Under the pieces are notes generated by a model. It was given only the letters and a program-made list of their open reading frames with translations, was not told the origin of the DNA and searched no databases. Both the position numbers and the translations under genes were made by a program. Positions 6,507 to 27,634 of a stretch of DNA of 45,350 nucleotides are shown piece after piece. The stretch lies in assembly GCA_017399905.1 (NCBI GenBank), contig JAFQAR010000083.1, forward strand, positions 1 through 45,350. The letters run 5' to 3'. The DNA comes from Bacteroidales bacterium (GTDB lineage: Bacteria; Bacteroidota; Bacteroidia; Bacteroidales; UBA932). How positions within the stretch are numbered: position 1 is the stretch's first letter; each line of letters starts with the position of its first letter.

Positions 6507-8333
6507 TCAGTATCTGAACGCCTTGTACGAGTGTGCCGGTATTTCCATGACCGTCTCTACAGGGACCTTCTCTCCAGTTTCCAGATTCTCCATTCCGCTT
6601 GTCTCTACATTGAAGCGGACCTTTACGGATACCGGAGTGTCATTGAAGTTCTCCACAACGAAAGTCCTGTTGTCATATGGGAAGAGGGCAACCTTTGACG
6701 GACCTTCAATGTACATGTCGAGACCCTTGCTCATGAATCTTCTTATGACGTTGAGCGCTCCTTCCGGATAATCATAGAGATTTCCGAAGTCATCAGGGAT
6801 GGTCAGAACATAAAGGGTTCCGTTAGAGTAGGAGTTTCTCAGCAGCACAGGATATCCCGACACGCCTCCGCGGAGCGGACGGCCTGCACTTACAACCTCC
6901 CATGCGTCGTTCGTGAAGTACTTTACCTGTGGGATGATGAATTCTCTATCGGATTTTCCATGTCGTCCGAAATCGTCAACGATGGCCTTGAGATCTCCGC
7001 AATAGAGTTCGCATACATCAGCAAGGTCGTCCTTGATGGTTTTGAGAAGGCCTGTGGTAACGATCACATCTCCGCCGTTCTTAAGCTGTGTCCTGATCTT
7101 GTCCATGATGGCAGGATCCTTTGCAGCCTGCTGGGTGAGAAGGATCTGCTTCTGATCCTGAAGGAATTCCGGATGCATGTCCTGAGGAAGTCCGATCATG
7201 CCGAGGTAGTTCTGGAGGAAGTCCTCGCCGGAAGAGTGATATGGCTTGTAGGATGCGATGCCTACAGGATTTCCCAATTTACCAAGGAATCCGTCTACCT
7301 GACGCAGTGTGTAGCTTGACACGCTTGCCAATGTCGAAGGTACGATTGTCTTCTTGCCTTTCTTCTTCGGCTGCATCATCTTGTCGTAGTCGAAGCTGTT
7401 GCCTGTGCCCTGCCAATCCTTTCTGTGATGTTCCGCATTTATTGCAACATTGTTGAGCTGCATGAAGTTCCAGAGGATGATTTCAGGGGTCTTGGTGAGC
7501 ATGGTGAGATGTACCTGCTCGGCATAACGGTCAACTCCCATGTTTATGCCTCCTGCATCAACCCAGCCTCCGCCGTTCTTTCCAGGAGCGATATTGTCGA
7601 AATATCTGATCACGTTGTAGCTCAGGTAATTCTGCAGATGCTGGTTTCCGCCTGGGTCACGAGTTTCAGTACCTGTCCAGAGACCGTCAAAATATTTCGG
7701 TTCTTCATCAAGGTTAAAGCCAAGGCCATGGAAATGGTCATACCAGTTAGGATACTTGATGATGACCTTGCATTTAGGATTCACCTTATGCGCAGGGTCT
7801 ACGACAAGCTCCTTTCCTGCCTTTGACATAAGTTCAAGACGGTATTCCGTCCAACTCCTGTCGCCCTTTGCCGCGATTTCGTCGTCGTTCTTCACATCGA
7901 TGAAGAAGAAGTCATCGAGTATGAAGTCATCGAAGAACTTCGCAGTATATTCCGCCACATACTTCACGAACTCTCTGTCCGGCTGTCTTGCGTAGCTGAA
8001 TGTCTGGAAATCATTCGGTTCGGAAATGGTATATGTGATGCCACCGCCTACTTCCAGACCTTTGGACTTGAAGAACCTGATCACTTCCTTCAGCGTCTTT
8101 TCATCAACTACGATCGAGTCGCGGTGTGTCTCTATGTACATCTTGTCGAGGTCGACCTGGCTGCTTACTGTCTCCCAAGTCTGCTCGAGGAAGGCTTTGT
8201 CCTTCATTTTCAGTACATCCTGAGCGCGGATGTACGATGAAACCTTGAAGTTCTCATATTTCTGTGCGTATGCCGTAACGGCTCCCGCTGAAAGCAGCAG
8301 GACAGCCAATAGCCTTAGTGCCATTTTTTTCAT
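6507..8333 (-). CDS. secreted glycosidase-like protein of unrecognised family (U1)
   Basis: A 608-residue protein with a signal peptide (cleavage near Ala-Tyr-Ala-Gln, residue 24). The N-terminal 350 residues look like an alpha/beta barrel: Met-Tyr-Ile-Glu-Thr near 65, Gly-Leu-Glu-Val-Gly-Gly-Gly near 92, Leu-Asp-Asp-Phe-Phe-Phe at 139-144, Ile-Lys-Tyr-Pro-Asn-Trp-Tyr-Asp-His near 192, and Gly-Thr-Glu-Thr-Arg-Asp near 221. The acidic residues at these presumed strand ends are candidate catalytic residues. A middle domain (about 400-480, Gly-Gly-Asp-Val-Ile-Val-Thr-Thr-Gly) resembles an amidotransferase-like fold, and the C-terminus is beta-rich, an order reminiscent of GH42-type enzymes. It is the last gene of the PUL operon, 6 bp after GH3, and is clearly paralogous to the protein at 25745-27634. 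I cannot assign a CAZy family. Glycoside hydrolase activity is inferred from context and fold-like features. Confidence 0.7.
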   Translation of the reverse strand: MKKMALRLLAVLLLSAGAVTAYAQKYENFKVSSYIRAQDVLKMKDKAFLEQTWETVSSQVDLDKMYIETHRDSIVVDEKTLKEVIRFFKSKGLEVGGGITYTISEPNDFQTFSYARQPDREFVKYVAEYTAKFFDDFILDDFFFIDVKNDDEIAAKGDRSWTEYRLELMSKAGKELVVDPAHKVNPKCKVIIKYPNWYDHFHGLGFNLDEEPKYFDGLWTGTETRDPGGNQHLQNYLSYNVIRYFDNIAPGKNGGGWVDAGGINMGVDRYAEQVHLTMLTKTPEIILWNFMQLNNVAINAEHHRKDWQGTGNSFDYDKMMQPKKKGKKTIVPSTLASVSSYTLRQVDGFLGKLGNPVGIASYKPYHSSGEDFLQNYLGMIGLPQDMHPEFLQDQKQILLTQQAAKDPAIMDKIRTQLKNGGDVIVTTGLLKTIKDDLADVCELYCGDLKAIVDDFGRHGKSDREFIIPQVKYFTNDAWEVVSAGRPLRGGVSGYPVLLRNSYSNGTLYVLTIPDDFGNLYDYPEGALNVIRRFMSKGLDMYIEGPSKVALFPYDNRTFVVENFNDTPVSVKVRFNVETSGMENLETGEKVPVETVMEIPAHSYKAFRY

Positions 8334-8339
8334 AGTCGT

Positions 8340-10544
8340 CTATTTTATGCGGGTTTTACCTGTAAGCCTGATGTCATCGGAAGAACTTCCAACGTGGAAT
8401 ACTGCTGCGCCTGGCTCCACTGCCCATCCGTCTGACGCTTCATCCCAATGACGGAATACCTCCTTGTCTATATCTATCTCCACACTTCTGGTTTCTCCAG
8501 CCTTTACTGTAACTCTCTGGAATCCTGCCAGCTCCTTCTCAGGTCTGATGACTGCTGACTCCGGACGTGATGCATATACCTGTACGACTTCATCTGCGTC
8601 CATTTTGCCGGAGTTCGTCAATGTGAGGGAAAGCTTCACGCCCTTGGATGTGGACTTTAACGCAAGGTCCGAATACTCGAAGTCAACATATGACAGTCCG
8701 TGTCCGAAAGGATAGAGGACAGGAATCTTCTTGCTCTCGTACCAGCGGTAACCTACGAAAATATCTTCTGCATAGTCTGCCTCAAGCTTGATGCTGTTCC
8801 TGTCTCTTCTTCTGTTCACAAGATTCACGAATATGTCCTCATTGCCTTCATCAATCTTCTGAGGGAATACGCCGAGTGCATATGCCGGGTTGTCCTCGAG
8901 CTGTACCGGGAATGTGAAAGGAAGCTTTCCTGAAGGTGCGATGTTTCCGACGAGGATATCTGCAAGAGCGTTTCCGCCTTCAGAACCGTTGAACCATGAA
9001 ACAACGACGGATGGAGATACCTCCTTCACTACGCGCAGATCTGCAGGTGCACCGGTGACCACCACGGTCACGATGTTAGGGTTGACAGCAGCAAGAGCCT
9101 TGATAAGCTCGTCCTGGCCCATCGGGAGCATGATGTTTGTCCTGTCTGAACCTTCTGTTTCTATATCGCGGTTGTTTCCGGCAACAAAGATCACCAGGTC
9201 GGATTTTCCTGCAAGCTCGACAGCCTCTTCCATAAGCTTCTGGTCAGGTTCGCGGACAGCAGGCATCCTGCGGTGACGGTCTTCTGCGGTATATTTCGCG
9301 TATCCCTGTGCATAGGTTACCTCAGCCTTGCCTTCAAGTCTTGACAGGAGACCGGCAAGCGGAGTCACTTCGTACAATGTCTTTACGCCTGCACCTACTC
9401 CTCCAAGCGACTGTGTCTGTACAGCATTGTCACCGATGACTGCGATCTTCTTGTGTTTCTGTGTGTCAATAGGAAGAAGGCCTTCGTTCTTGAGCAGCAC
9501 TACGGAATGAGCCGCTACATCGTATGCTATCTTCTGCTGAGGGGCCTGTGATGTCATTTCGACATTAGCCTTCTCTGCAGGAACCGGCTCTACTGCAAGG
9601 CGGACGCGCAGGAGCTCGCGGACTCTCTGGTCAACAGCCTCTACAGAAACCACACCGGCTTCGAGTGAATCAAGCAGGGTCTTTCCGAGGTGCGATGCGC
9701 CAGGCATCTCCACGTTCAGTCCGGCTTCAACAGCTTTTACAGAATGAGTGCCGCCCCAGTCGGAAATCACGACACCCTTGAATCCCCAATCGTCACGAAG
9801 AATGTCTGTAAGGAGCTCCTTGTTTTCAGAGCACCAGTAACCTCTTACCTTGTTGTATGCTGACATTACGCCCCATGCGTCACCTTTGCGTACGGACATT
9901 TCGAAAGGAGGGAGGTATATTTCCCTCATTGCTCTTTCGGACACCTGTACGTCAACGTATCCGCGATGGTCCTCCTGATTGTTCAATGCATAATGTTTGA
10001 GACATACTGCAGTTCCGTTTTCCTGAACGCCAAGTACATACTCCGTGGCAAGAACAGAACTCAGGAGCGGGTCCTCGCTGAAATACTCATAGGTACGTCC
10101 TCCTGTCGGTACTCTCTGGATGTTGATTGCCGGGCCGAGGATCATGTCCTTGCCTCTCAGTCGTGCTTCGATGGACATACCTTTGCCATATTCTCTTGCA
10201 AGCTCATCACTCCATGTTGCAGCAAGGGCCGAACCGGTAGGGAAGAACGTTGCGGAATCAGTGTCCAGATGGATAGAGTTCCAGCTGTGCGGCTCCATTT
10301 CCTCTCTGATACCGAATGGACCGTCAGCATACTCGATGTCAGCGATTCCCTGGGCAGGGACTCCTTCAGAAGAGAACATATGCTTGCCGTGAAGCATCGC
10401 TACCTTTTCTTCCAAAGTCATTGCTGACATGATTTCAGTGATCCTGTCCTCGTTCTTCATGAGGGCGGATTCCTTGACATCGGCTTCTGGACTGCAGCCT
10501 GACAGTGCCAGGAGCAGTAAAGCGGGAATTAATGTCTTTTTCAT
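8340..10544 (-). CDS. GH3 beta-glucosidase-type lipoprotein
   Basis: A 734-residue family 3 glycoside hydrolase with a lipobox (Leu-Ser-Gly-Cys, Cys17), so it is membrane anchored. The N-terminal barrel holds Lys-His near 183 and the nucleophile motif Val-Ile-Ser-Asp-Trp (Asp262). The alpha/beta-sandwich domain (about 340-560) and a C-terminal fibronectin III-like domain complete the BglX-like layout. It would release terminal beta-glucose (or xylose) from oligosaccharides. It lies 6 bp upstream of U1. Upstream is a 93-bp gap containing a -7 element TAATTTTG, so GH3 and U1 may also be expressed from their own promoter. It is the only enzyme of the locus with a lipobox. The family call is firm; the sugar specificity is inferred. 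Confidence 0.88.
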   Translation of the reverse strand: MKKTLIPALLLLALSGCSPEADVKESALMKNEDRITEIMSAMTLEEKVAMLHGKHMFSSEGVPAQGIADIEYADGPFGIREEMEPHSWNSIHLDTDSATFFPTGSALAATWSDELAREYGKGMSIEARLRGKDMILGPAINIQRVPTGGRTYEYFSEDPLLSSVLATEYVLGVQENGTAVCLKHYALNNQEDHRGYVDVQVSERAMREIYLPPFEMSVRKGDAWGVMSAYNKVRGYWCSENKELLTDILRDDWGFKGVVISDWGGTHSVKAVEAGLNVEMPGASHLGKTLLDSLEAGVVSVEAVDQRVRELLRVRLAVEPVPAEKANVEMTSQAPQQKIAYDVAAHSVVLLKNEGLLPIDTQKHKKIAVIGDNAVQTQSLGGVGAGVKTLYEVTPLAGLLSRLEGKAEVTYAQGYAKYTAEDRHRRMPAVREPDQKLMEEAVELAGKSDLVIFVAGNNRDIETEGSDRTNIMLPMGQDELIKALAAVNPNIVTVVVTGAPADLRVVKEVSPSVVVSWFNGSEGGNALADILVGNIAPSGKLPFTFPVQLEDNPAYALGVFPQKIDEGNEDIFVNLVNRRRDRNSIKLEADYAEDIFVGYRWYESKKIPVLYPFGHGLSYVDFEYSDLALKSTSKGVKLSLTLTNSGKMDADEVVQVYASRPESAVIRPEKELAGFQRVTVKAGETRSVEIDIDKEVFRHWDEASDGWAVEPGAAVFHVGSSSDDIRLTGKTRIK

Positions 10545-10589
10545 AAATAATGGTTACGTTTAAGAATTCAACTTTGGAAGCACATGTCC

Positions 10590-10597: not shown

Positions 10598-10637
10598 ATC
10601 ATTCTTTGTGAATTTATAGCTCAGTGTTATCAGGTGT

Positions 10638-13076
10638 TCAGAACTTTACAGATATCTTCTTGCCGGTGTATCTTATGGTTTTTGCTGATTTCTCTCCGGC
10701 GATGGTGATAAGGAAGCTTCTTTTGCCGATCATTCCGGAATATCCTCCGACCCTTTCATTGATTGTAAGTGTCTTGGTGGCATCATTCCAGACGAAAGGG
10801 ATCTCTGTATATTCTCCCTTTTCATAATTGTAGTTGTCAAATTCGTCTTCATAAAGGAAGAATTCTCCGTCAGCACCAGGGTATATCCTGATTTCCAGTC
10901 TGTTCCACTTCTTTTCTGTTGCATACTGGACTTTTTCAGTCGTTAAAGGAACGATGCTTCCGGCCTTGACGTAGACAGGTATTATGTCGATCGGAGCCTC
11001 CTTGACAATCATCTGTCCTCCTTCATGCCTTTCATCTGTCCAGAAGTCTATCCATTCCGAATTGTCCGGAAGATAGAGCTGTCTGTTTACTGTCCGGTTT
11101 TCCCCGACACCGTCTTCAAGGACCGGAGCTACGAGAAAGGCCTGGCCGAACATGAACTGGTCATCAAGCAGATAGGTATTCCTGTCCGAAGGTGCCTCCA
11201 TGGACATGTGACGTAGGAATGAATATCCGTTCTTCGTAGTCTGCCATGCAGTGGAGTAGATATATGGCAGCATCGAATACCTGAGGTTGATGTACTGCTC
11301 CTGTACGTCGAACGCCCAATATCCTCTTTCTCCGAACTGGTATATTTCACGAGGTGATCCGGTTCCGTGAGCTCTCATCATAGGGTTGAAAGCTGCAAAC
11401 TGGAACCATCTGCAATAGATTTCCTGATATCCAGGGTCCGTGTTGGCAGTGTTGTATACATAGCCGTACGGATGCCATGCTCCGATATCGGTATTCCAGT
11501 ACGGAATCGCGCACATGGAGAAATTCAGTCCTGCAGGTATCTGCTTTCTGAATACTTCCCAGGAAGCGCGGATGTCTCCGCTCCAGGAACCTGCTCCATA
11601 TCTCTGCAGGCCGGCAAATGCGGATCTGGTCAGGATGTACACACGCTTTCTGTCTGTAACCGAGCGCTGATTCTCATATACTCCTTTGCTTACGAACAGA
11701 GGATATGTGTTTCGGATGTTGCGTAATGTACCTTCTCCTGTCTGGATGTTGAAGTCTCCTGGAGAGGTGTTGTAGAATTCAGGTTCCGGACCGTCAAGCC
11801 ACCATGCGGACATTCCCGGTTCAAAAAGATTCCTGTTCATATATGACCAGAACAGGTCTCTGGCCTTCTTGTTCCATACATCATACACCTTCGCCTCACG
11901 AGGAGAAGTCTGCATCGGAAACAATGCTCCCATTTCGCTCAGATCCTTGTTTATCCGGGTGCTGTCTCCTACGCTTGGCCATACCGTGATCATCATCTTT
12001 GCGTTCATGTCCTTGAGGGATGAGAACATCTTCTGATGATTCCTGAATGAAGGATTGTTGAATTCCAAGGCATTCCACGTGTAGTTTTCTTCACCCCAGT
12101 ATTTCCAGTCCTGGACGATTGCATCGAGAGGGACTCCGAGGTCACGGTATTTCCTTACGACATCAGCCACCTCTTCTGCAGACTTGTACCTTTCCTTGCA
12201 CTGCCAGAAACCGAAAGTCCATAAAGGGGCAAGCTTTGCCTGTCCGGTCAGTTCTCTGAACAATGCGACGTTTCCGTCTCCATCCTTTCCGTAAAGGAAG
12301 TAGTAATCCACTGCCTCACCGGCTTCAGATGTGAACGATGTGCCCATCGGCGTGTCGTCGAATGTGGTGATTGAATAGTTGTCCCAATAGACTCCGTAGC
12401 CTTTCACTGAACTGAAATATGGAATGGCTATTTCCATGTTATTCTGTTCAAGCCTGAGACGCTGGTCTCTCTGATTCATCTTTCCGGACTGATGCTGTCC
12501 AAGACCGTAGATCACTTCGTCTTCATCAAGGATGAATGACTGCCTGATTTCATTGGTCTTTTCAACGACAATGCGCATGCGGCCGTTATTCATGCCCGGG
12601 GTATCCTGCCCTGGCGCACTTTGAGTAGGCACAACACCTGCCGGCTTAGGTGCTTGTGCTTTTTGAGGACGGATGCGCTGAATGAATTGTACGGGCATTA
12701 TCTGAGTGCCATACTCCTTTTCCGAAAGCAGACGCCTGCCGTCGGCACTGTAGAATTCGACTCTTCCGGTCTCCTTGTCAAGATTGACCAGAAGTTCCGA
12801 GGATCTGGCTACGATCAGATTGTCCGTAGCTGAAACTGCAACATCATGAGTCTGTGGCTCCATTTCGACTACAAAGCTTTTCTTTTTGCCGAAATCGGAA
12901 CTTTCAGCATATTTCAATACACGGACGATACCAGGAGAGTAGAACTCGATCTTGACGTCCATTCCTCTCACTTTGGCAGTAAAGCCATTGTCTTGGCCTA
13001 TCTTTTCTGCTTCATGTTGCTCCGCCGGCATCGACATTAATGTCAAGCAACTCAGTATCAGTGTCAATATTTTCAT
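10638..13076 (-). CDS. GH31 alpha-xylosidase/alpha-glucosidase-like enzyme (GH31a)
   Basis: An 812-residue family 31 protein with a signal peptide and no lipobox, so probably periplasmic. The barrel carries Val-Gln-Asp-Trp-Lys-Tyr-Trp at 321-327, the nucleophile motif Ala-Trp-Trp-Leu-Asp-Gly-Pro-Glu-Pro (Asp428) and the acid/base motif Trp-Ser-Gly-Asp-Ile (Asp501). The Val-Gln-Asp-Trp and Trp-Trp-Leu-Asp forms are those of the group containing xyloglucan-locus alpha-xylosidases such as Xyl31A of Cellvibrio. A Pro/Gln/Ala-rich linker-like insert (about 137-165) interrupts the N-terminal domain. It lies between GH9a (35 bp) and GH3 (93 bp). The family is certain; xylose versus glucose specificity is not proven. 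Confidence 0.87.
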   Translation of the reverse strand: MKILTLILSCLTLMSMPAEQHEAEKIGQDNGFTAKVRGMDVKIEFYSPGIVRVLKYAESSDFGKKKSFVVEMEPQTHDVAVSATDNLIVARSSELLVNLDKETGRVEFYSADGRRLLSEKEYGTQIMPVQFIQRIRPQKAQAPKPAGVVPTQSAPGQDTPGMNNGRMRIVVEKTNEIRQSFILDEDEVIYGLGQHQSGKMNQRDQRLRLEQNNMEIAIPYFSSVKGYGVYWDNYSITTFDDTPMGTSFTSEAGEAVDYYFLYGKDGDGNVALFRELTGQAKLAPLWTFGFWQCKERYKSAEEVADVVRKYRDLGVPLDAIVQDWKYWGEENYTWNALEFNNPSFRNHQKMFSSLKDMNAKMMITVWPSVGDSTRINKDLSEMGALFPMQTSPREAKVYDVWNKKARDLFWSYMNRNLFEPGMSAWWLDGPEPEFYNTSPGDFNIQTGEGTLRNIRNTYPLFVSKGVYENQRSVTDRKRVYILTRSAFAGLQRYGAGSWSGDIRASWEVFRKQIPAGLNFSMCAIPYWNTDIGAWHPYGYVYNTANTDPGYQEIYCRWFQFAAFNPMMRAHGTGSPREIYQFGERGYWAFDVQEQYINLRYSMLPYIYSTAWQTTKNGYSFLRHMSMEAPSDRNTYLLDDQFMFGQAFLVAPVLEDGVGENRTVNRQLYLPDNSEWIDFWTDERHEGGQMIVKEAPIDIIPVYVKAGSIVPLTTEKVQYATEKKWNRLEIRIYPGADGEFFLYEDEFDNYNYEKGEYTEIPFVWNDATKTLTINERVGGYSGMIGKRSFLITIAGEKSAKTIRYTGKKISVKF

Positions 13077-13111: not shown

Positions 13112-15649
13112 TTATTTGTTCTTAAGGTTCCGTTGTGCCAGAAGGACCATATACATGAAGTTGCTTGTCAAGCCTCCCATGCAGTATTCTCCCTGCTGCC
13201 ATATGAATGGAAAATCCAGAAGTTCAGGCAGGTCAGGACGGATAAGGTTCGTTCCTGGTGCGACTCCTCCAGGAATATATGACCAGTCAGCTCTGTTGGT
13301 TCCGTATGCTGCCTTCTGTGTCTCCACTCCTACACCTGTCACAAAGGATACGCGGTTAGTTCCAGGATGGAATCCCAGCAGATAATTTATGCTGTTGTAG
13401 ATGTATTCAGGATCGAAGACTTCCGGATATGACTCGTGAAGGAGGCAATAGCTGAATGTGTGGCTTTGCGGCTCCCATGATCCGCTTGAACGGTTTCCAC
13501 GATTGTGGGCGATTCCATAAGGGTTGAGTCTTGCGTATCCTTCGAAAGTCTCTCTGATTGAAGGAAGAGCCTCACGGATAGCCTTGCTGAACTTCTTGTT
13601 GCCGACAGCCTTGTCGAAACGTCCGACGAACCAGCCGCAGCGTGATATGTTCTTCACGATATAGTCCTTGTGGTCAAGGACAAAGTCGCGATAATCATCG
13701 CTGCCGGTTGTGAGGTACAGCTCGACAGCCGCAAACAGTTTACCTCCGGTAAGCCTTTCATTTTCAGGAAGGCTCTTGTAGATGGCTTCGGAAATCTCCA
13801 GACATCTTGTGCTCAATGTGTCGTTATGTCCTTTGAGGACTCTTGACATTGCAGCCAGCTTTCCTGCGACATCGATTTCCTTGTAAGGATTGTCTTCCGT
13901 AAATACCCATCTGTCGTCGCGACCGTCACATACGTTGTCTGTATGTTCGGCAGCATCTCCGAGGTGGACATACTGTCTTACAGTAGGGCAGAGTATGCCG
14001 CGGTAAAGCCGTCCGAGCGCATCCCATCCTGCAACAATGGTCAGGGCTCCGTTCTCAACCTGCTGGAGTATGTCGTTCTTTCCGTCAGGCTGATGGAGTT
14101 CGGTTACCTTGTTGACGAAATCTATGCTTGTCTCATCCCAATATGCACCGAAATTCTCAAATGCGAGGGCAAGTACATAAGCTTCACCTGCCTGTGACTC
14201 CACGCGAAGGTCGTAGTCACCTGCATCATGCCAACCGCCGATATTCAGACCAGGTACACGGTCTCCCGGCTTGTACTTTGTCATTGTGGATGCTCCCTGA
14301 GAATATCCGTCGATATGGTTGATGTCGGTCTTTGCCATTATAGCGTCATCATCATGGCAGTAGCCATGCCATACGCGGTACTTTTCCCTTACTTCCATAT
14401 GGCACATCTGGATAGGGAGGAAATACTCGACTTCAGTCTGCCATACGCCGACATCGTAAAGATCCTTGCTGATTCTGAATACGACTGACTCGGAGTCTCC
14501 GTACCTTACCTTGTACAAGCCTTCATCCACTACGTCAGAGAAGTCGAACTGGAGATAGTTGTAACGGTAGAAGTCACCCCATTGGTGTGCAGGCCCTTCC
14601 TTTACGACTCTTTCTCCAAGTGCGTCGATACGGTAGAGTACAGGTGTCTTGAAGTCATTGTCCCTCTTGTCGAGTTCGATGACAGCGATCTTTTTCTGTC
14701 CGGGATAGTAACCGATCTGAGATGTCTGCACTACAGGAGTATAACGCCAGTCCTTGTCTATTTCCGGCTTTATCACCCATTTTGCGGCTTCCTTTGTAGC
14801 GCCCGGCTTGATGTCGCTGCGGAGGATGAACCATCCGTTGTTATGGTTGATGCGGCCGTCATAAAGCCCGAATTCTCCTGTAAGACATTCGAATGTCACT
14901 TTCTTGAGACTCTTGTGCGGGTTAAGCACGAAGGTCTTTCCCTTTGCCATTGGAGCTGATACTATGTCGTCAGCTATCATAGGATTGTATGTCTTCCTGT
15001 CAAGAAGAAGCTGGTCGAGACTTGCCTTGCCCTTAGGATTGAAATCCCCGATATGGTTCGTGTTGCTCTCCTGTCTCATTGTAGGACCTGAAGACTGATG
15101 CGGGAAGTAGCCTGTCCTGTCATCCATTATCCACGGCTGGCCGAGAAGGGTTGAAGGGGTAAGCTCAAGATTGAAGCCTATCTTGCCTGCAAGCCATTCA
15201 GGAACCGGTCTGTCAAGGTCTACGGTCACTACTACGGCGTCTCCGTCACCTTTGACGCTTATGGTGTAGTTGAATGTGACATCCGGATATATTGCCGGAT
15301 TGAATCCGGAAAGATGATGTGTCGAATCCGGATAAGATAATGTAACTGATATCTCATTGCCTTCCTTGTTGACCTGGCGGCTGCGCATGCGCGGAAGCCC
15401 CTGCCACTGGCCCTGGGATATTTCGAGACGCACGTCACCGCTTCCGGCGACTCTGTCTCCGTTCATCACAATTGTAAGACCTCCTTGATGGCCTTCAGGA
15501 TATACGTCGCTGAATACCATCACATTGGCTCCATGATTCTCAAAATATTCAAGGTCGTTCACCTTGAAGCCTTGCGCATTTGCCAGCGCGGCTCCCATCA
15601 AGAGAGCCGCGACCGACAATAGAATTGATCTGACATTAGTCATAATCAT
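13112..15649 (-). CDS. GH9 glycoside hydrolase with extra N-terminal domain (GH9a)
   Basis: An 845-residue protein with a signal peptide (cleavage near Ala-Asn-Ala-Gln, residue 25). Residues about 27-300 form a beta-rich domain I do not recognise. Residues about 306-395 are the cellulase N-terminal Ig-like domain (Gln-Thr-Ser-Gln-Ile-Gly-Tyr). The (alpha/alpha)6 GH9 domain follows, with Gly-Gly-Trp-His-Asp-Ala-Gly-Asp (Asp475 and Asp478, base side) and a C-terminal Gln-Gln-Gly-Glu (Glu821) as candidate acid. The usual His-His-Arg motif is replaced by Tyr-Gly-Thr-Asn-Arg. GH9 enzymes invert beta-1,4-glucan-type bonds. It is transcribed between SusD and GH31a and is paralogous to 23190-25721. 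An alternative start is two codons in. Confidence 0.85.
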   Translation of the reverse strand: MIMTNVRSILLSVAALLMGAALANAQGFKVNDLEYFENHGANVMVFSDVYPEGHQGGLTIVMNGDRVAGSGDVRLEISQGQWQGLPRMRSRQVNKEGNEISVTLSYPDSTHHLSGFNPAIYPDVTFNYTISVKGDGDAVVVTVDLDRPVPEWLAGKIGFNLELTPSTLLGQPWIMDDRTGYFPHQSSGPTMRQESNTNHIGDFNPKGKASLDQLLLDRKTYNPMIADDIVSAPMAKGKTFVLNPHKSLKKVTFECLTGEFGLYDGRINHNNGWFILRSDIKPGATKEAAKWVIKPEIDKDWRYTPVVQTSQIGYYPGQKKIAVIELDKRDNDFKTPVLYRIDALGERVVKEGPAHQWGDFYRYNYLQFDFSDVVDEGLYKVRYGDSESVVFRISKDLYDVGVWQTEVEYFLPIQMCHMEVREKYRVWHGYCHDDDAIMAKTDINHIDGYSQGASTMTKYKPGDRVPGLNIGGWHDAGDYDLRVESQAGEAYVLALAFENFGAYWDETSIDFVNKVTELHQPDGKNDILQQVENGALTIVAGWDALGRLYRGILCPTVRQYVHLGDAAEHTDNVCDGRDDRWVFTEDNPYKEIDVAGKLAAMSRVLKGHNDTLSTRCLEISEAIYKSLPENERLTGGKLFAAVELYLTTGSDDYRDFVLDHKDYIVKNISRCGWFVGRFDKAVGNKKFSKAIREALPSIRETFEGYARLNPYGIAHNRGNRSSGSWEPQSHTFSYCLLHESYPEVFDPEYIYNSINYLLGFHPGTNRVSFVTGVGVETQKAAYGTNRADWSYIPGGVAPGTNLIRPDLPELLDFPFIWQQGEYCMGGLTSNFMYMVLLAQRNLKNK

Positions 15650-15685: not shown

Positions 15686-17356
15686 TTAATAACCCTCGTT
15701 CTGGTCCTCCTGGTTGATGTCAGGATTCCTGAGGATTTCATTTGACGGAATAGGGAAGACCGCCATGTATGGCTGATAATCGAAGTATCTTACTGAACCT
15801 CCGTTCTTCCTGTAATCGCTGGTTTCGCTCTTGTTAGGATACTCGCACTTGAACCATTCGTCTGCGATGCCCATTCTTACCATGCTGAAATAGAGGTCGA
15901 ACTCCTGGTTCAGCTCATGGCGACGCTCGATGAGGAGAGCGACTTTCCATACGTCTGCATTATAACCTTTTTCAGCCTTGTAGTTGGTGTAGAAAGTCTT
16001 TGCATCAGGAACGTCCACCACTGCAGTGTTGAGCATTTCGTTGAAGGCTCCTTCTACTGTGTTGCCTGGCTCGAGGTTACCCCATGCACGGTTACGGATC
16101 TGCTTGATCATCTCCCAACCTGTATTGGCATCTTCTGTCTCGAAGCAGCACTCAGCATAGTCGAGCATTACGCCGGCAAGTCTCTTGAAGGTAAGAGAAT
16201 GAGGAACGAAGATCTTCTGAGTAGAGTTAGGGTCATTCTTCCAGTATTTCAAAGTGTATACTGTAGGCATGTTCTCCGAACCCTGGAACCATCCGTCAAA
16301 TCCTTGTTTCACACCGATTGTCTGTCCTGTGAAAGGATTGGTGTCGCCAAGACCTACCATAGAGTACTGCTTACGCTTGTCACCAGGCTCGAATGAACGG
16401 TAAAGCTCGTATGAAAGACATAGTGAACCCCATCCGCCATGTTCAGGAGCAGCGCACATGCAGCTGTACCACATGGCCATGTCGACGTTGTTACCGCCCC
16501 AACCCATGTAGCCGAGCTCAGCGTACATAACTTCGAAGATCGATTCTTTAGTCCAGTGCTGGTTCCAGCCGTGAAGGTTTCCGTAGCATGGCTCAAGAGC
16601 ATATGTCTTGCTGTCGATGATATCCTTGAGGTGTGTCTTAGCCTCTGCGAATCTTTCCTGATACATCATCATTTCAGCGAGATAAGCTTTGCAGAAACCC
16701 TTGGTGATACGTCCGTATTCGCCGTTGCGAGGCTCCCAGTTGAGAACCTTCATTGCTTCAGTAAAGTCCTGCTCGATGAATTTGTACATCTCGTCAATCG
16801 ATTCAGGACGAGGCTTTCCAGGAGAGTTTGTGTAGGTGTCACCTGTCTTGAGGATAGGAACTCTGCCGAATACCTTAGTAAGGTAGAAGTTGTTGAAAGC
16901 CCTTATCGCCTTTGCTTCAGCCTCATACATCTTGATGTTTTCTTCTGAAGCGAAGATTGACTTGTCAGCCTTTGCAAGACCTTCGAGGAAACGGTTTGCG
17001 CGGTCAACGGCCCTGTAACTCATTCTCCAGGCAGTTGCAAGAGAACCCTTGTCAGGCTGTACGGCATGACGCTGCCACTCAGCATCCCATCCTGATGCCT
17101 GGCAGTCCATGGCAGAGTGGTTTGCAATGAATACCTGAGGCTTGAAACCCCATGTGTTGTCATCATCGGCAGGATTGTCCTGCTTTGTATAGAAGGTGTC
17201 ATAGATGCCGTTCAATCCGGCCTGGACATTCTCCTCAGTCTGGAACATGAAGTCTTCTGGAAGGATGTCATAGTGCTGTATGGTGAGGAAGTCCTCACAA
17301 GATGCCATAAACATTACGGCAGCACCTGTCAACAAGATTCTGAATATATTTTTCAT
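15686..17356 (-). CDS. susD: SusD/RagB-family glycan-binding lipoprotein
   Basis: A 556-residue outer-membrane lipoprotein with lipobox Met-Ala-Ser-Cys (Cys20). It has the helical TPR-like core of SusD proteins, with Ala-Lys-Ala-Ile-Arg-Ala-Phe-Asn-Asn-Phe-Tyr at about 147-157 and a C-terminal Pro-Ile-Pro-Ser-Asn-Glu-Ile motif. SusD lids the SusC channel and binds glycan at the surface. It follows the SusC reading frame by 13 bp and precedes GH9a by 36 bp. No second surface glycan-binding lipoprotein follows it, unlike in many PULs. Confidence 0.93.
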   Translation of the reverse strand: MKNIFRILLTGAAVMFMASCEDFLTIQHYDILPEDFMFQTEENVQAGLNGIYDTFYTKQDNPADDDNTWGFKPQVFIANHSAMDCQASGWDAEWQRHAVQPDKGSLATAWRMSYRAVDRANRFLEGLAKADKSIFASEENIKMYEAEAKAIRAFNNFYLTKVFGRVPILKTGDTYTNSPGKPRPESIDEMYKFIEQDFTEAMKVLNWEPRNGEYGRITKGFCKAYLAEMMMYQERFAEAKTHLKDIIDSKTYALEPCYGNLHGWNQHWTKESIFEVMYAELGYMGWGGNNVDMAMWYSCMCAAPEHGGWGSLCLSYELYRSFEPGDKRKQYSMVGLGDTNPFTGQTIGVKQGFDGWFQGSENMPTVYTLKYWKNDPNSTQKIFVPHSLTFKRLAGVMLDYAECCFETEDANTGWEMIKQIRNRAWGNLEPGNTVEGAFNEMLNTAVVDVPDAKTFYTNYKAEKGYNADVWKVALLIERRHELNQEFDLYFSMVRMGIADEWFKCEYPNKSETSDYRKNGGSVRYFDYQPYMAVFPIPSNEILRNPDINQEDQNEGY

Positions 17357-20568: not shown

Positions 20569-22950
20569 TTATCTTACGACTTTAGCCTTCGTGCCGGTGA
20601 TGCCGTTCACCTTGCTGCCGCTTACGGTGAACTTCTGCAGCTTGCCGTCTGACGGAATGCAGAGAAGTCCTTCTGCAGGTCTGCCGGTTGTGCTGTATAC
20701 CTTTACTGATATCTTGCTCCAGTCCATGTCTGCCGTAGACTGTGCGAGGGCTATGTGAGGAAGTGCGGAGCCGTCTTTCACGAGCATTATCACCGGAAGC
20801 TCTCCGTTTGCCTCGATGTGGTTCCAGCCAGGGTTGTAGACCTTGCCTGTCTGATAGTCGATCCATTTTCCGCCAGGGAGATAGACTGTCCTTGAAGTCA
20901 TGCCTTCCTCAAAGAGCGGAGCCACGAGGATCTGTGAACCGAAGAGATACTGGTCGTCAACCTTCCATGCTCCCGGATCGTCAGGGAACTCGATGAACAT
21001 CGCGCGAAGCATAGGAAGTCCCTTTTCAGTACATTCCTTGGCCTGAGCGTATACGTATGGCATGAGCTTGTACTTCATCTCGGCACTCTTGCGGAATACG
21101 TTCTGCACCTGCTCGCTTTCATAGAGCCAAGGCTCTGTAGGAGGAGCTCCGTGTGCTCTTGTGTGTGATGTGAGGAAGCCGAACGGCAGCCATCTGCAGT
21201 AGAGCTCGTCAGGTGTGGATTTTACGAATCCTCCCATGTCGTGGCTCCAGAACGAGAAGCCTGAGAGACCGAATGAGAGTCCTGAGTGGAGGGTACCGAT
21301 CATACCTGTGTCATCTGTTGATGCGTCTCCACCCCAGTGGAGAGGGTATCTCTGTGAGCCGGCCCATGCTGAGCGTGCCCAGATGATGTTTTCACCGTTG
21401 ATTTCCTTTGTGATCTCGGCTACCGCCTTGTTGTAGCGTGCCGGATAAAGGTTATGCTCATACCAGCCGCTCTTGCCTGATGCATACTGGCCGTTGAGAG
21501 GTGCACCTTCGCCGAAGTCAACCTTGATTGCGCCTACACCGATCTTGAGAAGGCCTGCAATCTTGTCCTGATACCATTTTACAGTCTCAGGATTCGAGAA
21601 GTCGAGTACGACATCCTCCTGCGGGAGCTGTCCGTTTCCGTTCTTCACGTAAAGGCCCTTCTCCACAAGCTCAGGGAAGAATACATTCTTCTGTGAGAAG
21701 TACGGAAGCTGCCAAAGGCTTACATGGAAGCCCATATCCTTAAGGTCAGCAAGCATCTTTGCAGGATCCGAGAATCTCTTCGGCGAGAATTTGTAGTCGC
21801 ACTGCCAGTCAACGTCGAACCATCCTGTGTCGAAATGGATGACGTCGCATGGATAGTTGTTTGAACGGATCTTTTCAGCGACATCGTAGCCTTCTTCCTG
21901 TGTGAAGTAGGTGATACGGCTCATCCATGTTCCGAATGACCAGAGCGGAGGCATCTGTGTCTTTCCTACAAGAGATGTATATTCGTCGAGGATGTCCTTA
22001 GGGTCGCCGAGGAAGATGAAGAGGTCAAGGTTCTCGTCGCCCATGAAGAGCTTGTTCAGTCCTATGTATGATGCTCCGAAGTCGCAGGTGACAGGTGCCG
22101 AAGTATGCATGAACATTCCGTATCCTCTGTCCGACATGAAGAACGGAACCGGCTTGTACATCTGGTCTGTTTCAGGACCCTGTGGGTCAGTTACATAAAG
22201 ATGTACCTTCTGTCCTGCCTTGTTGAGTGCAGTCGCTGACTCTCCGCATCCGAAGATCATTTCGCTTGGAGCCATTCTGAATACAGGATTGATGAGTCTG
22301 GCGTTGTCGCGTCCTCTCTTGATGAATGAGAAAGGAGTGTACTTTACCTGGCTGGCGCTGTTGTCACGGATTGCAGCGGTCTCGGTAAGTACCTTGCCGT
22401 CGGCATCCTTTATGACGATACGCCACGGATTCTTCTCGATGACGATCTGGCCGTACTCGCTCTTGTAGCTTACGGCATCTTCTGTCTCTGTGCCTGTCCA
22501 TGCGTCGCAAGACGGTACAGGACCCGCAAGCATTACCTCATCAGTGTTTTCTTCAGGCTCGACTATTGTCGTCAACATTCTGAGCCTCACTGTGCGTGGG
22601 GAAACGAAATCAATGCTGAATCTGTATGACGGATTGTTGTCATAAGCCGTCGAAGGGAAGTCAAGCATGCGCAGACGCATCGGCTGACGCAGGTTTGTGT
22701 TGAATGCCTGACGAGGTACAAGCTGGTGCCTTTGCCAATTGACCAGGCCTTCGCCTGTCGCGACGTCGAATGATTCGAGATGGTCGGCAAGGAACAGAAT
22801 GTTTCCCAATTCCCTGAAATCCTGGCTTACGTCTACTGCTTCATTCATCAGATATGTAACTCCGTTACTTGTCTGAGGCTGTGCAGATACTGACAGAGCT
22901 CCTAAAAGAAGTCCTGCCGTTGCAATCTTAAGGCATCTGGATAAATTCAT
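20569..22950 (-). CDS. GH31 YicI-type alpha-xylosidase-like enzyme (GH31b)
   Basis: A 793-residue family 31 enzyme with a signal peptide (Leu-Ser-Val-Ser-Ala-Gln, cleavage near 23) and no lipobox. The nucleophile motif Lys-Val-Asp-Phe-Gly-Glu (Asp478) corresponds to Lys-Thr-Asp-Phe-Gly-Glu of E. coli YicI alpha-xylosidase, and Trp-Gly-Gly-Asp (Asp542) is the matching acid/base. It is therefore of a different GH31 group from GH31a. It would remove alpha-xylose (or alpha-glucose) from the non-reducing end of oligosaccharides in the periplasm. I chose ATG 22950, which starts directly at the signal peptide; ATG 22962 is also possible. The longer open frame to 23067 lacks a signal-like N-terminus and covers the promoter region. 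SusC follows by 32 bp. Confidence 0.87.
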   Translation of the reverse strand: MNLSRCLKIATAGLLLGALSVSAQPQTSNGVTYLMNEAVDVSQDFRELGNILFLADHLESFDVATGEGLVNWQRHQLVPRQAFNTNLRQPMRLRMLDFPSTAYDNNPSYRFSIDFVSPRTVRLRMLTTIVEPEENTDEVMLAGPVPSCDAWTGTETEDAVSYKSEYGQIVIEKNPWRIVIKDADGKVLTETAAIRDNSASQVKYTPFSFIKRGRDNARLINPVFRMAPSEMIFGCGESATALNKAGQKVHLYVTDPQGPETDQMYKPVPFFMSDRGYGMFMHTSAPVTCDFGASYIGLNKLFMGDENLDLFIFLGDPKDILDEYTSLVGKTQMPPLWSFGTWMSRITYFTQEEGYDVAEKIRSNNYPCDVIHFDTGWFDVDWQCDYKFSPKRFSDPAKMLADLKDMGFHVSLWQLPYFSQKNVFFPELVEKGLYVKNGNGQLPQEDVVLDFSNPETVKWYQDKIAGLLKIGVGAIKVDFGEGAPLNGQYASGKSGWYEHNLYPARYNKAVAEITKEINGENIIWARSAWAGSQRYPLHWGGDASTDDTGMIGTLHSGLSFGLSGFSFWSHDMGGFVKSTPDELYCRWLPFGFLTSHTRAHGAPPTEPWLYESEQVQNVFRKSAEMKYKLMPYVYAQAKECTEKGLPMLRAMFIEFPDDPGAWKVDDQYLFGSQILVAPLFEEGMTSRTVYLPGGKWIDYQTGKVYNPGWNHIEANGELPVIMLVKDGSALPHIALAQSTADMDWSKISVKVYSTTGRPAEGLLCIPSDGKLQKFTVSGSKVNGITGTKAKVVR

Positions 22951-22979
22951 AGTGGTTGTCATTAGTTTTATGTTCTTCG

Positions 22980-22987
22980 CAAATTTA
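22980..22987 (-). promoter_or_regulatory. internal PUL promoter before GH31b
   Basis: TAAATTTG on the minus strand matches TAnnTTTG, with an expected start near 22973, about 20 bp before the GH31b ATG. About 80 bp upstream is the perfect palindrome ATGTATACAT (23068-23077) in AT-rich DNA, a possible regulator site. Confidence 0.5.
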
Positions 22988-23131
22988 AAGAAATCATTTT
23001 GCGGGTATGTGAAATTTTGTGTTGGCGAAGTGTGCGTTTTGTTTCCATTATACGTATCAATAATCACATGTATACATTTTGTTTCATTCTCGGGTGTTCA
23101 ATGTCACCTCGGAGTTACGGTTGCAGAAATG

Positions 23132-23189: not shown

Positions 23190-25721
23190 TCAGTTCTTGA
23201 GCATATCCTGTACTGCCAGTGCGATGAACATATAGTGTGATGATGCACCGCCGAGGCAGTATTCCATCTGCTGCCACAGGAACGGGAAGTCAAGCAGTTC
23301 AGGGAAGTCAGGACGTATGAGTGCCGTTCCTGAAGCCACACCGCCAGGTATGTATGACCAGTCGGCTCTGTTTGCTCCATATGCTGTTGTAGCAGATTCT
23401 GTTCCTACTCCGGATGCGAATGATATCCTGTTCAGACCAGGATGGCAGCCGAGTACAAAATTGAGCGCATTGTATACAGGTGCGGATGAAATGACATCCG
23501 GATATTCACTTGACATGAAATAGTGTCTGAATGCGAAGCTCTGGATGTTCCAGCCGGCTCCCCATATCGCAGGTCTGTAAGGTACACCGTAAGGCGTTTC
23601 GGCAGCCTGTGATTCGATGGATGCCATATACTTCGGAAGTTCTGCCCTGAACTCCTTCGAGAACTGCTTCGACTTCCTGTCCTTTCCTGCAGCAAATATC
23701 TTCTCTACTCTTGCAAGGTACCATGCGCATCCGTTGAAGTTGCTTATTATGAGATCCTTGTTTTCGAGAATATAATCCTTGTACTTCTGCTCTCCTGTGG
23801 TGAGGAAGAGTTCAGCAGCAGTCTGGATCTTGCTCATCTGTCTTCTGCCCTCAACCTTGACGTTGTCGAATATTTCCTTTGCTATGTTGAGGCAGTGTGC
23901 GCTGAGGGTGTCGTTGAAGCCTTTCAGGACGCGGCTTACGCCTGCAAGTTCTGCCGCAGTTGACATTTCCCTTCCAGGATTGTCCTCGGTGTAGATCCAG
24001 CGGTCGTCCTCATTGCCTATGATGCCGTCAGTCATTGATGCTGCGTCACCAAGAAGTACATACTGGCGAAGACCGTTGCAGATGATTCCTCTGTAAAGGC
24101 GTCCGAGAGCGAGATAACTGTTGACCACGCTCAATGCACCATGCTCGACCTGCTGGAGAATATCGTTCTTTCCGTCAGCCTGATGGATTTCTGTGATCCT
24201 TGTCTTCTGGTCAATTGATGTGACGTCGATATCCGGTCTGAACGTCTCATATGCAAGAGCAAGGATATAGGATTCACCGGCCTGTGATTCCACGCGGAGG
24301 TCGAAGTCTCCGGCATCATGCCAGCCACCGACGTTTACGCCAGGAACGATTTCGCCTGCCTCGTATTTGGACAGTCCCGGTTTCTGGTCATATCCGTCGA
24401 TGTGGCTGTGAGCCGGAGCCATCAGGGCATCGTCCATGTGGCACATGTCATGCCATACACGATACTTTTCGTTGACTCTCATGTGGCACATCTGAACGGG
24501 GAGGAAGTATTCAATGACGGGCTGCCATACACCGCGGTCATAGACATCTTCGTCAATTCGGAAGAGTGTCGATTCTGAATCCTTGTAACGGATCCTGTAA
24601 AGGCCGGGGTCGGTGATGTCCGTGAAGTTTGTCTTTAGGTATCGGTAGCGGAGGAATCTGCCCCATTCAGTTGTGTTGATGCTCTTGATGGCTTTCTCAC
24701 CATCTTCTTCTATCTTATATATGGTGACCGGATCGTTTGATGTGTCTCTGCTGTCAAGTTCTATGACCACCTGCTTTTCCTGAGATGGATGGTAACCTAC
24801 CTGAGATACCTGTACCACAGGCTTGTACATCCAGTCTTCGACTACTTCTGGAGTGATGATCCATTTTACTGCACCCTTTGTGGCGCCGGCAGCGATTTCG
24901 CTTCTGAGGACGAACCATCCGTTATTGTGGTTCACACGGCCGTCATACAGCTTGAGGTCTCCGGTAAGGGACTCTATGGTTACGCGCGAATATGGGTCTT
25001 CCGGATTTGAAGTGAACTTCCTGCCGACTGCATAAGGGGCACCGATGATGTCGTCAGCGACGATAGGGCTGTATCCCTCTCCTATGAGGTGGTCGAAATT
25101 CGCAAGAGATGACTTTCCGTCATGATAATCGCCCACATGCTTGTGGTTCGGGCAATGGGTTTCAAGAGGCGCGTTGGCCTGGCGGGGGTAAATGCCTGTC
25201 TTTCCGTCCATTATCCAAGGCTTGCCGAAAAGGTATCCCGGGAAGAATTCGAGGTTGAATCCTATTTTTCCGATGAGGAAATCAGGTATCGGCCTGTCAA
25301 GATCTACTGTCACTTCCACGCCTTTGCCTACAGCCTCCACCTTCACTGTATAGTTGAAGTGGAAATCAGGATAGATCATCGGGTTGAAGCCGGTCATGTG
25401 GCGCGATGAGTCCGGGAAGCAAAGGGTCGCCGTGATGCTGTTTTCTCCGAGCTCACGTCCTTTCTGCTTTGGAACAGGCTGCCATTGACCAGGAGTCGCT
25501 TCCATACGGATGTCACCGTTTGTGGCGATCCTGTGGCCATGCATGATAAGGCTGACTCCTCCCTGATGGCCTTCAGGGTAGATGTCATCGAATGCCATTA
25601 CATCGACACCTTTGTTGTTAAGGTAGCCGGTAGGTAGTAGTTTGAAATCCTGAGCCTGCAGTGATATCGCCGAGGCTATGGACAGGATCAAGGTGCTGAT
25701 CAGTAGATGTCTTTTCATCAT
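23190..25721 (-). CDS. GH9 glycoside hydrolase with extra N-terminal domain (GH9b)
   Basis: An 843-residue protein with a signal peptide (Ser-Leu-Gln-Ala-Gln). It has the same order as GH9a: an unrecognised beta-rich domain (about 25-300), a cellulase N-terminal Ig-like domain (Gln-Val-Ser-Gln-Val-Gly-Tyr-His), and a GH9 catalytic domain with Gly-Gly-Trp-His-Asp-Ala-Gly-Asp and a C-terminal Gln-Gln-Met-Glu (Glu820). The His-His-Arg motif of GH9 cellulases is replaced by Tyr-Gly-Ala-Asn-Arg, as in GH9a. It follows U2 by 23 bp and is followed by a hairpin and a 239-bp gap. The shared departures from cellulase motifs suggest that both paralogues act on something other than plain cellulose. Confidence 0.85.
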   Translation of the reverse strand: MMKRHLLISTLILSIASAISLQAQDFKLLPTGYLNNKGVDVMAFDDIYPEGHQGGVSLIMHGHRIATNGDIRMEATPGQWQPVPKQKGRELGENSITATLCFPDSSRHMTGFNPMIYPDFHFNYTVKVEAVGKGVEVTVDLDRPIPDFLIGKIGFNLEFFPGYLFGKPWIMDGKTGIYPRQANAPLETHCPNHKHVGDYHDGKSSLANFDHLIGEGYSPIVADDIIGAPYAVGRKFTSNPEDPYSRVTIESLTGDLKLYDGRVNHNNGWFVLRSEIAAGATKGAVKWIITPEVVEDWMYKPVVQVSQVGYHPSQEKQVVIELDSRDTSNDPVTIYKIEEDGEKAIKSINTTEWGRFLRYRYLKTNFTDITDPGLYRIRYKDSESTLFRIDEDVYDRGVWQPVIEYFLPVQMCHMRVNEKYRVWHDMCHMDDALMAPAHSHIDGYDQKPGLSKYEAGEIVPGVNVGGWHDAGDFDLRVESQAGESYILALAYETFRPDIDVTSIDQKTRITEIHQADGKNDILQQVEHGALSVVNSYLALGRLYRGIICNGLRQYVLLGDAASMTDGIIGNEDDRWIYTEDNPGREMSTAAELAGVSRVLKGFNDTLSAHCLNIAKEIFDNVKVEGRRQMSKIQTAAELFLTTGEQKYKDYILENKDLIISNFNGCAWYLARVEKIFAAGKDRKSKQFSKEFRAELPKYMASIESQAAETPYGVPYRPAIWGAGWNIQSFAFRHYFMSSEYPDVISSAPVYNALNFVLGCHPGLNRISFASGVGTESATTAYGANRADWSYIPGGVASGTALIRPDFPELLDFPFLWQQMEYCLGGASSHYMFIALAVQDMLKN

Positions 25722-25744
25722 ATTATGCGGTTAGGTTATTTTCC

Positions 25745-27634
25745 TTAAAATGAGAATGTTGCATATGAATGTGCAGGAAGGCTTATCTTGAATCTGGCCT
25801 CAGGCGCTGATGCTCTTCTCCAACCCCGTCTTTCCGGAAGCGGTTCCGGAACAATCTTCTCTCCTGTTGACAGGTCGGTCAGTTCGGCGGTCTTTTCGTT
25901 CATTGCTATGTTTATCTCAACTGCTTCATCGTTGAAGTTCTCGACAATGAACGTGTTGTTGTCATAAGGGAACAATGCCACCTTTGCAGGGCCTTCCACA
26001 TAATATCCTACATCCTTGCTTACCGCTGCCCTGATGGCGTTGAGAGCTCCTGCCGGATAGTCATAGAGGTTTCCGAAATCGTCAGGAACCGTAAGGACGT
26101 AAAGGGTTCCGTTCGAATACGAATTTCTCAGCAGGATAGGGAAACCGGATACTCCTCCGGTAAGAGGACGGCCTGCGCTTACCATCTCCCATGCGTCATT
26201 GGTGAAATATTTGACCTGAGGTATTATGAAGCTGCGTTCTGATTTGCCGAAGTATCCGAAGTCATCCACAATGGCCTTGAGATCACCGCAATACAGTTCG
26301 CAGATGTCTGCAATTTCGTCCTTCATGGCTTTGAGGAGTCCTGTGGTTATGATGACATCTCCACCTCTGTTGAGCTGCTTCCTGATCTTTTCAATGATAT
26401 CCGGATCGTCTGCCGCCTGCTGTGTGAGCAGAACCTGCTTCCTGTCTTCAGGGAACTCAGGGAGAATATCCATAGGGATGCCTATCATGCCGAGATAGTT
26501 CTGGAGGAATCCTTCTCCGGAAGAATGATAAGGCTTGTATGAAACCAGACCTTCCGGCTCTCCGAGCATGCCGACGATCCTGTCGGTCTCGTGAAGGGTC
26601 ACATGGGCTATTCTTGCCGTCACGGAAGGCACTACTTCCTTTCCGTCCTTTGTGAACGGCGCCATTATCGCATCATAGTCAAAGCTGTTGCCCGTGCCCT
26701 GCCATTCTTTTCTGGTGGCAGGATTTACCGGTGTGGCAAGAGCTGAATAATGCCAGAGTATCATTTCGGGAAGCTTGGCGATCATGCTCAGATGCAGCTG
26801 TTCGGCATACCTGTCGATACCCATGTTGATGCCTCCAAGGTCCACCCATCCTCCGAGATTCTTTCCAGGGGCTATGTTCGAGAAGTAGGTCGTGATGTTG
26901 TAGCTGAGATAGTTCTGCAGATGCTGCTCTCCGGCAGGATCACGGGTCTCATTGCCTGTCCATATGCCGTCGAAATATGTCGGCTGGGTCTCAAGGTTGA
27001 ATCCCAGGCCCTGGAAGTGGTCGTACCAGTTCGGATACTTGATGATCACCTTGCAGTCAGGATTTACCTTGTGGGCCTGGTCTGCGACAAGCTCTCTTCC
27101 GGCCTTGTCCATGAGGTCAAGCCTGTATTCCGACCAGCTCCGGTCACCTTTGGCCGCTATCTCCTCGTCATTCTTGATGTCAATGAAAAAGAAGTCGTCC
27201 AGGATTATCTCGTCAAAATATCCGGCTGTCAGGCTGATGATATCCTTGACCTTTTCCCTGTCTTCCTGTACTGCGTAACTGAATGTAGGATAAGTGCCCG
27301 GCCTGCGGCTGGTAAGCGTTACGCCGCCACCGATTTCAAGTCCTTTTCCCTTGAAGAACGCTATCATGTCCTCAAGAGACTTCTTGTCGATCGTGAATCC
27401 GTCACGATATGTCTCGATGTAGATCTTGTCAAGATCCAGCTGGCTGCTGATGGTGTTCCACTGGTTTTCTCTGAATTCGTGATCTGCGGAAAGCCGTGCG
27501 ACATCCTGCACCATTATGTAGCTTGACACCTTGAAATTTCTGTAGTTTCCGGCCTTCATGTCGGAAGACAGGAACGACATGGCCAGTATGGCACATGCTG
27601 TCAGATACAATCGTAATTTGGGAAACATCTTCAT
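25745..27634 (-). CDS. secreted glycosidase-like protein of unrecognised family (U2)
   Basis: A 629-residue protein, the first gene of the main PUL transcript, with an N-terminal signal peptide. It is collinear with U1 over its whole length and shares all the landmark motifs: Lys-Ile-Tyr-Ile-Glu-Thr, Gly-Gly-Gly-Val-Thr, Leu-Asp-Asp-Phe-Phe-Phe-Ile-Asp, Ile-Lys-Tyr-Pro-Asn-Trp-Tyr-Asp-His-Phe and Gly-Asn-Glu-Thr-Arg-Asp-Pro. These fit a barrel with acidic residues at strand ends. An amidotransferase-like middle domain and a beta-rich C-terminus follow. It has an Arg-rich loop (Pro-Glu-Arg-Arg-Gly-Trp-Arg-Arg) near the C-terminus that U1 lacks. The gene starts about 12 bases after the expected transcription start. 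A role in glycan breakdown is inferred from position and fold; no known family was recognised. Confidence 0.7.
   Translation of the reverse strand: MKMFPKLRLYLTACAILAMSFLSSDMKAGNYRNFKVSSYIMVQDVARLSADHEFRENQWNTISSQLDLDKIYIETYRDGFTIDKKSLEDMIAFFKGKGLEIGGGVTLTSRRPGTYPTFSYAVQEDREKVKDIISLTAGYFDEIILDDFFFIDIKNDEEIAAKGDRSWSEYRLDLMDKAGRELVADQAHKVNPDCKVIIKYPNWYDHFQGLGFNLETQPTYFDGIWTGNETRDPAGEQHLQNYLSYNITTYFSNIAPGKNLGGWVDLGGINMGIDRYAEQLHLSMIAKLPEMILWHYSALATPVNPATRKEWQGTGNSFDYDAIMAPFTKDGKEVVPSVTARIAHVTLHETDRIVGMLGEPEGLVSYKPYHSSGEGFLQNYLGMIGIPMDILPEFPEDRKQVLLTQQAADDPDIIEKIRKQLNRGGDVIITTGLLKAMKDEIADICELYCGDLKAIVDDFGYFGKSERSFIIPQVKYFTNDAWEMVSAGRPLTGGVSGFPILLRNSYSNGTLYVLTVPDDFGNLYDYPAGALNAIRAAVSKDVGYYVEGPAKVALFPYDNNTFIVENFNDEAVEINIAMNEKTAELTDLSTGEKIVPEPLPERRGWRRASAPEARFKISLPAHSYATFSF

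Follow-up and report, generated by a model that had tools for sequence, protein, structure and literature searches.

Two paralogues of an unrecognised secreted barrel family frame a GH9-containing polysaccharide utilization locus and may trim hemicellulose oligosaccharides

Contig JAFQAR010000083.1 of a gut Bacteroidales bacterium (assembly GCA_017399905.1, lineage UBA932), considered here over positions 1 to 45,350 (the window), carries two related genes, U1 and U2, at opposite ends of a polysaccharide utilization locus (PUL). The analysis supports the conclusion that their products represent a widespread family of secreted, glycosidase-like barrel proteins, U, which is recognised by no library searched. 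U is very probably a glycosidase, and the balance tips slightly towards action on hemicellulose oligosaccharides released by glycoside hydrolase (GH) family 9 enzymes. The overall reading, which makes U1 and U2 periplasmic glycoside hydrolases that trim such GH9-released oligosaccharides, stands at about an even chance, and action on xyloglucan-derived oligosaccharides in the window locus is a more tentative proposal. The two genes are:

6507..8333, minus strand: U1, secreted glycosidase-like protein of 608 amino acids, intact open reading frame (ORF)
25745..27634, minus strand: U2, U1 paralogue (BLASTP to U1) of 629 amino acids, intact ORF

BLASTP aligns the two proteins end to end, with 395 of 624 positions identical (63%, E 0), in agreement with the original prediction, made from the sequence alone, that U1 and U2 are collinear minus-strand genes. 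That prediction also described both products as secreted and as keeping LDDFFF, IKYPNWYDH and ETRDP at presumed barrel strand ends. Indeed, both N-termini resemble signal peptides, as judged by eye, all three motifs are found in each protein, and the U1 model puts them at or just past the C-terminal ends of strands 4 (residues 136-140), 5 (189-194) and 6 (217-222). It further regarded the gene as duplicated, which is correct insofar as the locus holds two copies, although not in the sense of a recent local doubling. U1 is 73-74% identical to a homologue from the same genus, more than it is to U2, and U1 and U2 are thus old paralogues; in a FastTree tree, U1 groups with the same-genus homologue (G016), and U2 forms a long branch in the same broad clade. 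Counted over up to 13 positions round each strand end, U1 and U2 differ at 6, 7, 9 and 9 positions for strands 1, 2, 3 and 8 and at 1, 1, 3 and 2 positions for strands 4, 5, 6 and 7, a pattern of conserved core and variable rim. Because they share the catalytic core and vary mostly in the loops of strands 1, 2, 3 and 8, the two proteins probably differ in subsite preference.

The prediction that this glycosidase-like family could not be placed has withstood the searches made here. Neither U1 nor U2 reached the cut-off of a Pfam or NCBIfam model, which leaves both without a Pfam match to a characterised GH family. No relative of U1 was found among PDB sequences (best E 0.4), nor was one found there with profiles of 10 and 15 U homologues. 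Pfam scans of 10, 15 and 75 U members, taken singly, yielded no family, and neither the GH42 model nor PF02638 was among the matches. Sub-threshold matches from these family and PDB searches (e.g., PF22157, PF18604, PPP1R32 and IMP dehydrogenase) were dismissed as chance. CAZy founds families faster than Pfam, and U might already belong to a CAZy family with neither a Pfam or NCBIfam model nor a PDB entry; the novelty would then be merely apparent, whatever the mechanism. This is unlikely, given the absence of a match in Pfam, NCBIfam and PDB sequences and of a matching family in the titles and abstract openings of the literature.

The predicted structure of U1 begins with a (beta/alpha)8 barrel at the N-terminus, continues with an alpha/beta domain that resembles the trimerisation domain of GH42 and GH164, and ends in a C-terminal beta-rich domain. 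The predicted active-site residues are D140 and D141 on strand 4, K193 on strand 5, E223 at strand 6 and D259 on strand 7; by the BLASTP alignment, the U2 equivalents of the acidic residues are D146, D147, E229 and D265. In the 103 of 106 alignment rows that were counted (L046, L062 and L088 were left out here and from alignment A3), D141, D259 and E223, the last lying just past strand 6 in the model, are each invariant (103/103). The extra length of the U ORFs in L046 and L088 looks like a reading frame that happens to stay open before the usual start, and it was rejected as a real extension. Binding-only barrels usually lose the acidic and basic residues at their strand ends, whereas in U these are invariant over the 103 homologues, down to 27% identity, which makes it very improbable that U is a non-catalytic glycan-binding or scaffold protein retaining the barrel, even though the listings and passages of the literature that were covered contain no enzyme activity of the family.

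The structural neighbours listed for the U1 model are mostly beta-active enzymes of the clan GH-A type; the absence of a family from the VIA list does not exclude that family. The model suggests a three-domain fold shared with GH164 Bs164, a beta-mannosidase of Bacteroides salyersiae, at 8-10% identity and with no profile match, and D141 and D259 would stand where Bs164 has Glu-160 and Glu-297, its catalytic residues on strands 4 and 7 according to passages of PMC7105311. GH42 beta-galactosidases likewise appear to share with U the barrel, the trimerisation domain and the C-terminal beta domain. However, their Asn-Glu on strand 4 and Glu on strand 7 (as given in parts of PMC5765458) correspond to Asp-Asp and Asp in U, which thus lacks the GH42 pair of Glu acid/base and Glu nucleophile; these positions were matched to GH42 and GH164 by strand order rather than by superposed coordinates. 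For a U-like architecture acting on beta-1,4-linked hemicellulose oligosaccharides, passages of PMC8233224 provide a precedent, although the enzyme described there uses Glu156 and Glu281 and is without the C-terminal beta domain.

Barrels with Asp-Asp on strand 4 also occur in GHL10 (PF02638), to which U has no Pfam match. It could be supposed that U is an enzyme of the GHL10/PgaB type whose substrates are amino-sugar polymers, or which works lytically in the way that Cwp19 attacks peptidoglycan. The C-terminal domain of PgaB, of family GH153, acts on poly-N-acetylglucosamine and has Glu, not Asp, on strand 7; by annotation, PgaB is fused to an N-deacetylase domain, whereas U instead has two C-terminal domains. 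Cwp19, whose substrate is peptidoglycan according to parts of PMC6016235, has no acidic residue on strand 7, with Gly at the position of D259 in U. Together with the hemicellulose gene neighbourhood of U and hhalign comparisons of U with 12 GHL10 proteins of related genomes, which were not significant (probabilities of 0.2% and 1.6%), these differences make such an assignment highly unlikely.

If U is a glycosidase with clan GH-A-like geometry, the mouth of the barrel would be the site of catalysis; D141 would occupy the acid/base position and D259 that of the nucleophile, assisted by E223, K193 and R71. The replacement of Glu/Glu by Asp/Asp may widen the gap between the two residues, as would befit an inverting enzyme with a single displacement; alternatively, the enzyme could be a retaining one, or E223 could serve as the second catalyst. 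U would then act before GH3 and trim oligosaccharides that the co-inherited GH9 frees from a hemicellulose of the beta-1,4-glucan type. The genes that accompany U1 and U2 in the window are:

8340..10544, minus strand: GH3 (Pfam); closest PDB chains are GH3 enzymes, including beta-glucosidases
10638..13076, minus strand: GH31a, 812 amino acids (Pfam); closest PDB chains are the alpha-xylosidases 7kmp, 5jou (BoGH31A) and 2xvg
13112..15649, minus strand: GH9a, a divergent GH9 with CelD_N (Pfam), 52% identical to GH9b
15686..17356, minus strand: SusD-like glycan-binding lipoprotein (Pfam)
17370..20536, minus strand: SusC-like transporter in two ORFs (17897-20536 and 17370-17900) with a frame break
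20569..23067, minus strand: GH31b (Pfam); closest PDB chains are 5f7c (alpha-glucosidase) and YicI
23190..25721, minus strand: GH9b with a GGWHDAGD stretch (Pfam); its subfamily of GH9 co-occurs with U
27730..31719, minus strand: HTCS, hybrid two-component regulator
31822..33687, plus strand: GH2, divergent from HTCS

The order of transcription is HTCS, U2, GH9b, GH31b, SusC, SusD, GH9a, GH31a, GH3 and U1. Thus, U2 is the first enzyme gene after HTCS and U1 the last gene, immediately after GH3, so that the pair frames the minus-strand operon as originally described, and Pfam confirms the GH9, GH31 and GH3 content claimed for the locus (two, two and one genes, respectively). An origin of the PUL by doubling of one GH31-GH9-U block was rejected because the pairs are unequally similar: GH31a and GH31b are just 24.5% identical, compared with 52% for the GH9s and 63% for the U proteins. 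The two SusC ORF products match positions 2-811 and 816-981 of the NCBIfam model TIGR04056, and the ORFs overlap at 17897-17900; the split is either a genuine lesion or an assembly error. GH31b scores 504.7 bits against the NCBIfam alpha-xylosidase model, under its cut-off of 606 bits. The DAGD of the GH9b stretch is presumably the GH9 catalytic motif. About 300 N-terminal residues of both GH9a and GH9b have no Pfam family, and only 5u2o and 3x17 among solved chains reach E 0.001 with GH9b; the subfamily looks uncharacterised by structure.

The combination of GH31, GH2, GH3 and GH9 in the window points to xyloglucan as the substrate. Bacteroides ovatus BoXyGUL brings together GH9, GH31, GH3 and GH2 with a TonB-dependent transporter and surface glycan-binding proteins, according to passages of PMC4967831, and the window PUL resembles it in these four families, which are present by Pfam, with GH31a nearest to the BoGH31A type; 5jou and 2xvg, close to GH31a, are xyloglucan-active by their descriptions. 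On the other hand, the window PUL is without GH5 and GH43, contains U1 and U2, and has a split SusC and divergent GH9s, and GH31a has 812 amino acids compared with 955 residues in the BoGH31A chain. Xyloglucan is the best guess for the window locus only, and beta-1,4-gluco- or mannan-type backbones are the theme common to U loci.

A different role for U would be that of an alpha-glycosidase that removes a hemicellulose side chain (e.g., fucose, arabinose or galactose) through D141 and E223. Clan GH-D alpha-glycosidases use such a pair on strands 4 and 6, the invariance of E223 just past strand 6 would agree with it, and no GH43, GH95 or GH51 was found by Pfam among the PUL genes scanned, a gap for other xyloglucan side chains that U could fill. 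However, the mostly beta-active structural neighbours of U1 speak against this role, as do eight U carriers in which, at the chosen thresholds, GH9b occurs without GH31b, and it is distinctly unlikely.

U is found at no fewer than 505 tblastn-confirmed places in genome contigs. The titles of the best 80 of these at least 505 places, a selection leaning to U1-like sequences, name mostly Prevotella, Prevotellaceae or Bacteroidales, many of them from ruminants. Among sampled whole genomes, the source genome included, a U match occurs in 9 of 61 relatives; the count for the order is 20 of 393, and that for the phylum 8 of 394. The order is taken to be Bacteroidales, since some of these genomes have U sequences identical to those in records named as Bacteroidales. 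The co-occurrence table omits one of the 20, G225, whose match is weak and partial (E 1.2e-4). Across the order (393 genomes), U is counted in 19 genomes and the GH9b subfamily (E up to 1e-180) in 23; the two occur together in 15, where approximately one would be expected. A follow-up set of 80 genomes consisted of the 19 U carriers, 8 genomes with GH9b only and 53 controls (seven of 60 random controls were dropped). In these three groups, GH31b was present in 8/19, 0/8 and 2/53 genomes and GH3 in 11/19, 1/8 and 7/53, at GH9, GH3 and GH31 thresholds set after the score ranges had been seen and with Fisher values that ignore relatedness. The survey of homologues for which the original prediction called thus links U to GH9 and GH3, by both genome content and neighbourhood.

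Neighbours were counted at 76 of the 80 loci (L073, L077, L089 and L090, where an antisense frame had been picked as the ORF, were left out). A GH3 at least 50% identical to that of the window directly adjoins U, always on the same strand, in 29 of them; GH9 of at least 45% identity is present in 11, and a GH31b-like gene of at least 50% in 2. In L072, GH31b, GH9a and U are consecutive, and L137 contains a GH51-like alpha-L-arabinofuranosidase, U, a weak GH9-like gene and GH31b. The combination of U with its GH9 partner is found beside GH5 and GH13 in L019 and, by similarity, in L035, and with a sugar 2-epimerase in L147 and, by similarity, in L142, where GH5 is also present. The SusC-like gene of L147 is also in two ORFs, broken at a different place from that of the window. 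L175 (G551:C13:21500-41400) brings together GH94, GH130, an epimerase-GH26 fusion, a GH2-like gene and a GH9 from the same subfamily (46% identity), which suggests a beta-mannan or glucomannan route; U is not at this locus and is found elsewhere in that genome. A second GH9 PUL in the source genome, L160 (G000:C35:135500-155400), encodes at 5706-8705 a GlcNAc_2-epim domain fused to a C-terminal part that matches no Pfam family, looks GH30-like by eye and has similarity to an L167 protein of similar length; hmmsearch rejected this part as a U copy. Some rumen Prevotella, P. ruminicola KHT3 among them, carry U away from the GH partners seen in the window. In L013 (Prevotella ruminicola KHT3) and L032 (Prevotella sp. 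P6B1), no homologue of the window-type GH3, GH9 or GH31 is present in the fetched stretch, and these U proteins are candidate enzymes outside any PUL.

Several observations weigh against a GH9-coupled hemicellulose role with clan GH-A-like catalysis. No GH3 of at least 50% identity is present in the fetched stretch, which is sometimes short, at 46 of the 76 loci, and SusC-like genes accompany U in only 8. Since, moreover, 18 of the 20 positive genomes of the order have a single match, not two, the claim that the duplicated gene performs an essential step is not supported. Four of the 19 U carriers are without the GH9b subfamily at the threshold (G043, G057, G107 and G326), and eight genomes have GH9b without U. 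The association of U with GH31a, which marks xyloglucan most clearly, is only weak (5/19, 0/8 and 4/53 in the follow-up groups; p 0.074, not significant). Identity to GH42 and GH164 is only 8-13%, U profile searches retrieve neither family, Bs164 (PDB 6t5o and others) is not listed by U profiles A2 and A4 with E limits of 5 and 10, and an Asp in each of the two catalytic positions does not make a clan GH-A dyad. Two remote U clades (seven sequences, 27-29% identity) keep the key residues, but two of the seven lie near rhamnosidase-type genes (GH78, Bac_rhamnosid, in L145; GH106, Glyco_hydro_106, in L146), and the other five are in mixed or housekeeping surroundings, where that of L134 adjoins a GH3 of 33% identity. 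In L145 and L146, genes near U encode beta-helix proteins that match GH141_M below its threshold, and U adjoins an FAD-dependent oxidoreductase in L145; this context is pectin-like and differs from that of the main clade.

In its fullest form, the proposal would be that U constitutes a new GH family with the three-domain body of GH42 and GH164, an invariant Asp/Asp (plus E223) in place of Glu/Glu and an inverting mechanism, which acts on a linkage in GH9-released hemicellulose oligosaccharides, occupies hundreds of contig places and is common in ruminant-gut Prevotella and relatives. This is a rather doubtful proposal. Its confirmation would assign a function to a protein that is common in ruminant-gut Bacteroidota, and the altered catalytic pair in a GH42-like body would offer a test of how clan GH-A chemistry can shift.

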